A stretch of DNA of 21,097 nt. It comes from an uncultured Massilia sp. GTDB lineage: Bacteria > Pseudomonadota > Gammaproteobacteria > Burkholderiales > Burkholderiaceae. Both the position numbers and the translations under genes were made by a program. This document shows positions 20,474 to 21,097 of the stretch, in pieces (position 1 is the first letter of the stretch; each line of letters starts with the position of its first letter). The notes under the pieces were generated by a model. That model worked only from the letters and a program-made list of their open reading frames with translations. It was not told the DNA's origin and did no database searches. Where the stretch lies: positions 1 to 21,097 of the forward strand of contig CAMLMV010000077.1 of assembly GCA_946481275.1 (NCBI GenBank), given 5' to 3'.

Positions 20474-20488
20474 AACCCACTATGGGTT
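20474..20488. promoter_or_regulatory. Inverted repeat upstream of the small HTH gene (candidate operator)
   Basis: AACCCA-CTA-TGGGTT is a perfect 6-bp inverted repeat with a 3-base centre, 40 bp before the ATG of the HTH-like gene. Position and size suit binding of a dimeric repressor, possibly that protein itself. A TATATT (20444-20449) lies upstream and could be a -10, but no good -35 is found at 15-19 bp. The rest of the 146-bp gap (20383-20528) shows nothing else clear. Confidence 0.4.
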
Positions 20489-20528
20489 GTGGAGAATTTC
20501 CCATGGATGTCACAAGCGAAAGACGAAC

Positions 20529-20795
20529 ATGCCCATCAGACGCCTGCCCGAGGGCGCCGAGTACGACCCGAACCGGGTGCTCGACGCCATCATCAATAAA
20601 CTCAAGCTCAAGAACGATGCCGCGCTGTCGCGCCTGCTGGAAGTGGCGCCGCCCGTGATCAGCAAGATCCGCCACAACACGCTGCCGATCGGCGCCACCA
20701 TCCTGCTGCGCATGCACGAGGTGTCCGACTACAGCATCCGCGAGCTGCGCGCGCTGATGGTGCGGGCGGACGGCGCGGGCGTCGGCCTGGCCTGA
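20529..20795 (+). CDS. Small helix-turn-helix-like protein (Cro/XRE-like)
   Basis: An 88-residue protein with a probable HTH at about 29-50: NDAALSRLLEVAPPVISKIR, where a Ser-Lys-Ile-Arg recognition helix follows the turn, as in XRE repressors. Before it is VLDAIINKLKL, and after it a conserved-looking LPIGATILLRMHEVSDYSIRELRALM. Similar small proteins occur in Oxalobacteraceae and are usually annotated hypothetical or transcriptional regulator; this is from memory, not a search. ATG 20529 is the only ATG before the domain and has a weak SD; an in-frame TTG at 20487 would add 14 residues unlike the rest. A palindrome lies 40 bp upstream. It is convergent with the repeat gene and separated from it by the terminator hairpin. 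It has no catalytic domain and probably binds DNA. Confidence 0.75.
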   Translation: MPIRRLPEGAEYDPNRVLDAIINKLKLKNDAALSRLLEVAPPVISKIRHNTLPIGATILLRMHEVSDYSIRELRALMVRADGAGVGLA

Positions 20796-20798
20796 GCC

Positions 20799-20829
20799 AA
20801 AAAAATCCGCCCCGGGGTACGGGGCGGAT
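20799..20829 (-). terminator. Rho-independent terminator of the minus-strand repeat gene
   Basis: A 10-bp perfect stem, ATCCGCCCCG with CGGGGCGGAT (20805-20814 and 20820-20829), has a 5-base loop. On the minus strand it is followed by a T-run (the plus-strand A run 20799-20804). It begins 28 bases after the stop of the repeat gene. This is the strongest terminator in the window and shows that a minus-strand transcript ends here. On the plus strand the hairpin lies 9 bases after the HTH stop but lacks a T-run. Confidence 0.88.
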
Positions 20830-20857
20830 CGGGCTGCGCGGCCGGCGTCCGCTTGCC

Positions 20858-21097
20858 TCAGGCGGCCGATACGGACTGGGCGGCTGTCTGCGTCGGCTTG
20901 TTGTGTTTCCACGGGCCGGCGCACCAGGCGGTGCCGACGCTGATCGTGTCCACGGCGCGCTTGGTCACCATGTCGATGTGCGGTCCGGCGCACCAGGCCG
21001 TGGCGGCGTTGATCGTGTCCCCGGCACGCCTGGTCACCTTGTCGATGTGGGGGCCGGCGCACCAGGCGGTACCGGCATTGATCGTGTCCCCGGCACG
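20858..21097 (-). CDS. Tandem-repeat protein or peptide precursor, C-terminal part (5' end outside window)
   Basis: A frame open from the right edge to TGA at 20858-20860 encodes at least 79 residues. I do not recognise the family. The visible part is three copies of a 23-residue unit: RAGDTINAxTAWCAGPHID plus a short spacer ending RR or KR before the next unit; the last copy departs after TAWCAGP and ends with a Gln/Ala/Ser-rich tail. Each unit has one Trp-Cys pair. Support for the frame: the stop is followed after 28 bases by a T-run terminator, third positions are GC-rich, and of seven codons that differ between units 1 and 2, four are synonymous, with conservative R/K and G/A changes among the rest. 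The start, leader and any partner genes lie beyond 21097. Another minus frame (20406-21062) runs through the terminator and is rejected. Confidence 0.72.
   Translation of the reverse strand, partial: RAGDTINAGTAWCAGPHIDKVTRRAGDTINAATAWCAGPHIDMVTKRAVDTISVGTAWCAGPWKHNKPTQTAAQSVSAA
20891..21097 (-). repeat. 69-bp tandem repeat, about three units, continuing past the window edge
   Basis: Unit 1 (21029-21097) and unit 2 (20960-21028) are full 69-bp copies. Unit 3 (20891-20959) matches for about 48 bp and then diverges. The period is an exact multiple of three, so the reading frame is kept. There is no spacer of unique sequence between units, so this is not a CRISPR array. The number of further copies to the right is unknown. 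Confidence 0.9.

Follow-up and report, generated by a model that had tools for sequence, protein, structure and literature searches.

The right edge of the window (the whole stretch of 21,097 nucleotides of Massilia DNA analyzed here) cuts a gene that carries tandem copies of one short conserved peptide. From comparison with relatives we propose, at a probability of a little under one half, that this gene is the multi-copy precursor of a hexapeptide ligand recognized by a linked CHASE sensor. The strongest feature of the gene is the CHASE sensor gene that lies upstream, outside the window. The precursor would consist of a helical GRDP-like domain (PF27765) and a disordered string of near-identical A-[WYF]-C-x-x-P words, here AWCAGP. 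Once translated, the words, presumably released or exported and either cleaved free or still linked, would bind the product of the adjacent upstream CHASE gene at its sensor domain and bring about a signaling outcome; this receptor would be a histidine kinase in Massilia and, in Variovorax and Cupriavidus, a protein of the GGDEF-EAL type. Duplication of the two-gene cassette in tandem would give paralogues with different words, and the word of each would be kept matched to its own CHASE domain, resulting in several private channels per cell. The proposal draws on the architecture of the gene, the near-invariance of the word, the differences between paralogues, the linkage to a CHASE gene and, within limits, the covariation of word and sensor.

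A literature search that covered few subscription journals returned neither a description of PF27765 or of the word spellings, nor a report joining the CHASE domain, a peptide pheromone and a Gram-negative bacterium; the repeat gene and the CHASE gene form a two-gene family for which we found no description. Should the words prove to be CHASE ligands, the ligand of each receptor could be read from its precursor sequence, cells with three pairs would offer three orthogonal channels, and multi-copy peptide signals would extend to Gram-negative soil bacteria, in a gene found in 61/62 searched genomes of one genus.

The repeat gene at the edge of the window

The gene and its parts are placed as follows:

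20858..21097, minus strand: 3' part of the repeat-protein gene, 79 codons and the stop codon TGA (20858-20860), open at its 5' side
21050..21067, minus strand: core hexapeptide 1, AWCAGP (from the translation)
20981..20998, minus strand: core hexapeptide 2, AWCAGP (from the translation)
20912..20929, minus strand: core hexapeptide 3, AWCAGP, with W replacing H after the core (from the translation)
20804..20830, minus strand: intrinsic-terminator-like hairpin, 11-pair stem and T run, 3' of the stop codon

The frame, as translated in the list of open frames, reads RAGDTINAGTAWCAGPHIDKVTR / RAGDTINAATAWCAGPHIDMVTK / RAVDTISVGTAWCAGPWKHNKPTQTAAQSVSAA and contains three Trp-Cys units with a period of 23 residues, the junctions of which carry RR and KR. 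It is the 3' end of a real gene. A reading of the sequence alone had taken the gene to be real and truncated by the window edge, and the frame, the stop codon and the terminator are indeed found, while relatives supply the rest: in Massilia phosphatilytica (L006, L007) the same frame occurs at the syntenic place with more units and, thus, the repeat of the window exceeds chance. The strong intrinsic terminator postulated behind the gene corresponds to the 11-pair hairpin and T run (20830-20804), one of two terminator-like sites in the whole stretch, against 0.5 expected. In the nearest genome (G001) the syntenic contig stops within the repeat gene. By analogy with relatives, the sequence to the right of 21097 would be expected to hold further units, the N-terminal domain and, upstream of the repeat gene, the gene for the CHASE kinase. 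Scans of the stretch with the repeat gene against Pfam and NCBIfam (both at E 1) and against Rfam (at the gathering score) gave no family match.

The units had been described as sharing RAGDTINAxTAWCAGPHID, which is correct for units 1 and 2, but unit 3 reads RAVDTISVGTAWCAGPW. Within the core TAWCAGP, the three units differ, as pairwise sums, by 6 synonymous and 0 non-synonymous changes (pS 0.375, pN 0), and the one comparable spacer pair by 1 synonymous and 6 non-synonymous changes; these counts are too few for a rate, and 80 arrays of relatives show the same pattern, in agreement with the earlier suggestion that the units are under selection. The earlier description of a multi-core precursor, in which the cores are conserved and the spacers vary, likewise agrees with both the window and the relatives.

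Convergent with the repeat gene, at 20487-20795 on the plus strand, is the gene for a small protein without a Pfam match, the cluster of which is present at 12/20 syntenic loci; G001 has three further DNA matches to it elsewhere (156-199 bases, 75-82% identity). Actinobacterial DNA (L008, L009), in which AWCAGPWKH lies within a transporter-like protein, was rejected as a relative, these being chance matches as judged by eye, and a metagenome "nitronate monooxygenase" with three in-frame TAWCAG units (P0001), probably an assembly chimera, was excluded from the counts.

The complete gene and its N-terminal domain

The architecture of the complete gene, drawn from L007, L010 and 84 ORFs of relatives, is strongly supported by these sequences: a GRDP-like domain of about 130 residues precedes a tail in which A-[WYF]-C-x-x-P is repeated up to 24 times. 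In M. phosphatilytica the gene is split across two contig ends, with its 3' part in L006 and its 5' part in L007. A homologue search with the L007 part gave 2453 matches, and the 120 listed are all labelled PF27765 (a precomputed label) and named, where a name is given, only "hypothetical" or "glycine-rich domain-containing protein"; our own Pfam scans of repeat proteins did not name the PF27765 model. Among 124 homologous proteins, a few fragments aside, the domain is followed by an array with its own flavor, for example TAWCASPHI, TAYCAGPRA or TAFCAGPHK. With PF07173 (GRDP-like; cut-off 22.7 bits), two Massilia members score 20.8 and 21.4 bits and the Cupriavidus repeat protein 19.2 bits, below the cut-off, and repeat-free relatives from Halomonas (25.0), Azospirillum (23.9) and Stanieria (23.4 bits) score above it. 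The N-domain of the repeat protein shares with the GRDP-like proteins (PF07173/PF27765) the signature WHxH...DC...HHxPY, and in a ten-member alignment its invariant residues include W68, H69, H71, D81, H92 and P94, with C82 and H91 nearly so.

Unlike the repeat protein, the GRDP-like relatives observed in other genera mostly lack an A-[WYF]-C-x-x-P array, and many of them end in Gly/Ser/Cys-rich tails. At least two Cys residues occur in the last 45 residues of 43/59 distinct rows outside the genus (a count that leaves out three repeat-bearing relatives and three duplicate loci), often in Gly/Ser-rich tails. A Cys-bearing tail is therefore common in the GRDP-like family, and the array is one form of such a tail. 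In predicted structures the N-domain is all-helical, and the tail, with pLDDT under 50 (residues 130-197), is predicted to be disordered; judged by eye, the repeat proteins have no signal peptide and no membrane segment. Assemblies break in the repeat array, the domain or the adjoining kinase (L006, L007, L010, L102, L234) and, for this reason, copy numbers in draft genomes are underestimates.

The hexapeptide word is under selection

We surveyed 666 units in 84 ORFs of at least 150 residues, from 63 loci in 62 genomes (61 of the genus and G412, from another genus of the family). The aromatic residue is W in 36%, Y in 36% and F in 28% of the units; it is followed by C in 95% and S in 5%, and P stands at +5 in 81%. 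Within-array statistics are based on the 80 arrays of at least three units, 4/84 ORFs having been dropped for fewer. Among the units of these arrays pN is 0.000, 0.009, 0.006, 0.016, 0.066 and 0.025 at A, the aromatic, C, +3, +4 and P, respectively, the first three of these positions being partly set by the search pattern and +3 to +5 free of it; it is 0.098 right after the hexapeptide and 0.22-0.39 at -3 to -1, +7 and +8, with pS between 0.34 and 0.87 at every unit position. Positions -1, +3, +4 and +5 pooled give a pN/pS of 0.23. A dN/dS of about 1 among units would have spoken against the gene as first read; in the arrays of relatives pN/pS is 0.12 in the core and 0.55 in the spacer. Since pN in the hexapeptide is low while synonymous sites differ throughout, the copies are old and kept alike by selection, for which the evidence is strong. 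Tandem arrays do homogenize themselves, but a neutral or structural low-complexity repeat, alike through slippage and gene conversion alone, is hardly credible here, where pS between units is about 0.5 and the hexapeptide stays nearly constant while the spacers of the same arrays vary.

It is the hexapeptide, and not the 23-residue unit of the sequence-only reading, that is conserved: unit spacing ranges from 8 to 34 residues among relatives (median 16), and a single period is found in 27/80 arrays. The dibasic RR and KR noted at the ends of the spacers are present at both junctions of the window, but do not hold up as processing sites. A dibasic pair occurs in 41/583 spacers, against 69 expected by shuffling, so that the RR and KR of this window are local.

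A single aromatic is used throughout 75/80 arrays. In contrast, paralogues at the same locus share the core consensus in 0/22 pairs and differ in the aromatic in 16/22. This bears on a metallothionein-like function, in which the tail would bind metal or thiols and be sensed indirectly by the kinase. The Cys of 95% of the units, the His that sometimes follows Pro and the Cys-bearing tails of relatives would suit such a tail, but five arrays have Ser throughout (L059, L060 twice, L138 and L149), Pro is followed mostly by G, R, W or H, and metal binding requires neither a near-invariant A and P, nor a single aromatic per array, nor words specific to each paralogue; we consider this function very unlikely.

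A CHASE gene is linked to the repeat gene

In 20 neighborhoods of 17-20 kb each, with gene clusters defined by the simple gene caller of this analysis, glnS and an upstream CHASE-HisKA_3-HATPase kinase are common to 20/20. Recurrent downstream are the small protein (12/20), an NAD-epimerase (17/20), a ferredoxin-type reductase (14/20) and an MFS protein (17/20). The other neighbors scanned with Pfam are a DnaJ, a metallophosphoesterase, a ribosome-hibernation-type protein, a periplasmic binding protein, a cNMP-GGDEF protein, a chemotaxis receptor, DUFs, proteins without a match and a methyltransferase type several genes away (4/20 loci).

In each of the 62 genomes surveyed, G412 included, the kinase gene precedes a repeat ORF at a distance of under 400 nt. 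Counted by ORF (at least 150 residues), it lies upstream on the same strand in 83/84 cases and within 400 nt in 72; of the 11 with the kinase farther away, nine are second repeat genes and two are split genes, and the 84th (L136) is preceded by a kinase fragment cut at the contig end. A genome has only 4-9 CHASE matches (seven genomes). Moreover, the kinase and repeat genes are duplicated together, nine loci having two or three adjacent pairs (three in L052 and L131). The three words at L052 are AYCAGPW, AWCAGPR and AFCAGPH. The linkage extends to other output domains. Eight of 20 plasmid hits were opened, and all three that bear repeats (Variovorax PDNC026, C. pinatubonensis and Cupriavidus P-10) encode a CHASE protein 70-74 nt upstream, which is CHASE-GGDEF-EAL by Pfam in the first two and CHASE by profile in the third; these CHASE domains reach 181-191 bits on the profile of linked CHASE domains, on which unlinked ones of Massilia relatives reach up to 227. 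For the five repeat-free plasmids (from Stanieria, Maritalea, Azospirillum, Halomonas and P. savastanoi) the annotation names no CHASE protein next door. A counter-example is G200, which has the N-domain at a contig end and a tail beginning VAWS (possibly a first unit); no CHASE gene lies upstream, and the CHASE query found no match anywhere in the genome. Taken as a whole, these sequences are strong evidence that the repeat gene is linked to a CHASE gene, with output domains that differ.

The sensor half of the L007 kinase (residues 39-247) aligns with the solved sensor domain 6k62 (E 2e-7) and also with 3t4j (E 2e-4), which we take to be PcrK (listed only as "Histidine kinase") and AHK4, both cytokinin receptors. 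To our knowledge, CHASE sensors are common in bacteria and their ligands mostly unknown beyond the cytokinin case, and we know of no repeat-peptide gene beside PcrK. PcrK, a CHASE kinase of Xanthomonas and a cytokinin receptor, senses isopentenyladenine (PMC7072313).

The word tends to follow the CHASE domain

The comparison covers 67 pairs in which the kinase is complete and the array has three units or more. The nearest relative, taken from another locus, uses the same aromatic in 56.8/67 cases when chosen by the CHASE domain, 37.2 by the kinase and 33.3 by the N-domain (fractions reflect ties), as compared with about 22/67 for shuffled labels (97.5% point 31). In paired tests CHASE alone was right 28 times and the kinase alone 4 times (p 1.9e-5), and CHASE alone 23 times and the N-domain alone once (p 3e-6). 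The whole core word is the same in 32.0 nearest neighbors by CHASE, 18.5 by the N-domain and 15.7 by the kinase. The effect is clear in the 18 members of multi-copy loci (same aromatic in 18.0 by CHASE, 6.2 by the kinase and 6.0 by the N-domain), where the nearest relative is the paralogue next door in 9/18 cases for kinase and N-domain and never for CHASE; in the 49 single-copy loci (37.0, 30.5 by the kinase and 28.7 by the N-domain) it is not significant (p 0.09 and 0.07). The pairs are not phylogenetically independent. Dereplicated sets give, for CHASE, kinase and N-domain, 43.0/22.6/20.3 of 53 and 14/6/9 of 24, and at a mean distance of 0.3 the effect vanishes (5/5.5/3 of 13).

The membrane-proximal stretch before the CHASE domain tracks the aromatic nearly as well (50.0) and the linker reaches 48.3, although the alignment with the solved sensor spans residues 39-247. 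Of the 20 columns that say most about the aromatic, 13 fall in CHASE, which has 155/535 columns. Mean divergence is 0.55 for CHASE, 0.29 for the kinase and 0.32 for the N-domain, and the greater variability of CHASE by itself sharpens its nearest neighbors. By Mantel tests on the aromatic alone CHASE leads (0.20; 0.21 given the kinase, p 0.0005), with 0.09 for the kinase and 0.10 for the N-domain. For the whole core, the correlation with CHASE is 0.03 given the N-domain (p 0.29) and 0.11 given the kinase (p 0.016), and, given CHASE, that with the kinase is 0.22 (p 0.002) and that with the N-domain 0.31 (p 0.0005).

These whole-word correlations, higher for kinase and N-domain than for CHASE, would be in keeping with a repeat protein that stays in the cytoplasm as a multivalent partner, its tail of short linear motifs binding or buffering the CHASE receptor, its regulator or a common partner. 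The lack of a visible signal peptide, the predicted disorder of a tail with variable spacing and the fixed pairing of the two genes fit as well. By nearest neighbors, however, the kinase tracks the aromatic worse (37/67) than the periplasmic part does (57/67), and other genera swap the kinase output for GGDEF-EAL yet keep CHASE; we see a cytoplasmic partner as possible, if on the whole doubtful. A ligand of the CHASE sensor has its own difficulties, namely the signal peptide not seen by eye, the exporter not recognized next door and a CHASE domain expected to face the periplasm. In its favor is the physical order CHASE, kinase, N-domain, words, in which the ends covary and the middle less so. 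Mere linkage predicts the opposite, whereas a matched ligand and sensor would leave such a pattern. The middle of the cassette (kinase and N-domain) has apparently been exchanged. We regard the covariation of word and CHASE domain as moderate evidence, at the level of sequence, that ligand and sensor are matched.

Possible maturation of the words and comparison with known systems

The sequence-only reading had considered a RiPP, and had pointed to neighboring maturases, proteases and exporters as the genes to look for. No known RiPP maturase, peptidase or peptide exporter was recognized by Pfam in 18 representative neighbor proteins from the 20 neighborhoods of relatives. MNIO is present in 44/62 genomes of the genus, including G017, and the 18 without it, among them the single-contig assemblies G044 and G060, all carry the repeat gene; MNIO was therefore rejected as an obligatory maturase. 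TIGR04222 proteins are candidate MNIO substrates that have no Sec signal and carry Cys-bearing, low-complexity C-terminal tails (PMC12452194). The repeat proteins, as putative precursors with no visible signal peptide and with Cys-bearing C-terminal tails, resemble these MNIO-associated RiPPs, but differ in that no MNIO is among the scanned neighbors, Cys can be replaced by Ser and the TIGR04222 model (NCBIfam) was unmatched by P0004, the L007 paralogue, the window tail, the Variovorax protein and 4 GRDP-like relatives. A multi-core RiPP, with Cys and the aromatic modified by a distant maturase or in cis by the His-bearing N-domain to give a signal, an antibiotic or a metallophore, would agree with the leader-like domain and multiple cores, with the Cys-bearing tails of relatives and of TIGR04222 proteins, and with N-domain residues (W68, H69, H71, D81 and H92, invariant; C82 and H91, nearly so) that could bind metal. 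The five whole arrays with Ser for Cys and the lack of a maturase in the scanned neighbors imply that a Cys-directed modification is at least not universal; together with the MNIO-free carriers and the unmatched TIGR04222 model, they make a RiPP unlikely.

The N-domain itself may modify the words. Words modified or cleaved by their own N-domain would explain why no maturase or protease is recognized beside the gene. A private peptide language of Gram-negative bacteria, in which CHASE and word are matched, the middle is freely exchanged and a His/Cys site of the N-domain modifies or cleaves the words, is conceivable along these lines; as a whole it is a speculative and decidedly improbable combination.

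A ligand of the CHASE sensor would have parallels elsewhere. Precursors of the yeast alpha-factor type hold several copies of one short peptide that has a dedicated receptor. The repeat gene is alike in its multiple copies of one short peptide, but it is bacterial, no signal peptide was seen, dibasic sites are not enriched and a CHASE gene adjoins it. In the agr and com systems of Gram-positive bacteria the genes for ligand and kinase are linked, and ligand and sensor domain diversify together. Here too the gene is linked to a kinase gene, but in a Gram-negative background, with up to 24 copies per gene, a CHASE sensor and no exporter or processing enzyme recognized in the cassette.

Distribution and an upstream DNA element

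With a profile of the N-domain (A1), matches were found in 61/62 genomes of the genus. The exception, G017, has a contig that ends inside the kinase gene upstream, some 0.3 kb away from glnS, and its repeat gene is therefore probably in the gap. Matches in 63/399 genomes of the order and 29/398 of the phylum are mostly distant GRDP-like proteins. Within the family, G412 has the kinase and repeat gene pair with the word AFCGIV, and in G102, G299 and G385 neither a close relative of the repeat gene nor a close CHASE domain was found.

Many repeat genes have, roughly 30-60 nt ahead of their start codons, an element resembling CCAAAACTAGGGAwnGCAGTAC. A matrix trained on 83 upstream regions scores over 9 in 51 of those same regions and is unspecific on its own, with 400 hits of this kind in 1.5 Mb on the two strands combined. 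In 10 whole genomes the exact pattern AACTAGGGAN{0,2}GCAGT occurs 3 times, each time just before a repeat gene, as compared with 1 occurrence of the reversed control; no wider regulon was found with it in these genomes. Examples of the conserved ACTAGGGA..GCAGT element are:

G058:C1:270639, conserved element
G058:C1:273809, conserved element
G013:C1:389306, conserved element

Several repeat-free relatives have neighborhoods or tails of their own. On an Azospirillum plasmid (L063, 4959-10297) the GRDP-like protein is followed by a methyltransferase, a TauD-type dioxygenase and a UvrA-like protein, in what looks like a small biosynthetic cluster. A gene of about 440 residues lies directly behind the GRDP-like protein in Halomonas (beside an AHL synthase), Maritalea and P. 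savastanoi (L067 3864-6691, L066 4929-6704, L065 4746-6631), and its product is membrane-protein-like by eye in Halomonas and Maritalea. Two further relatives (L181 7985-8476 and L180 7523-8017, both on the minus strand) end in ...HACHxPxSCACRxPGACK, and that of L181 has a weak match to TIGR04135, the FibroRumin RiPP model (E 0.005; 16.7 bits against a cut-off of 45).
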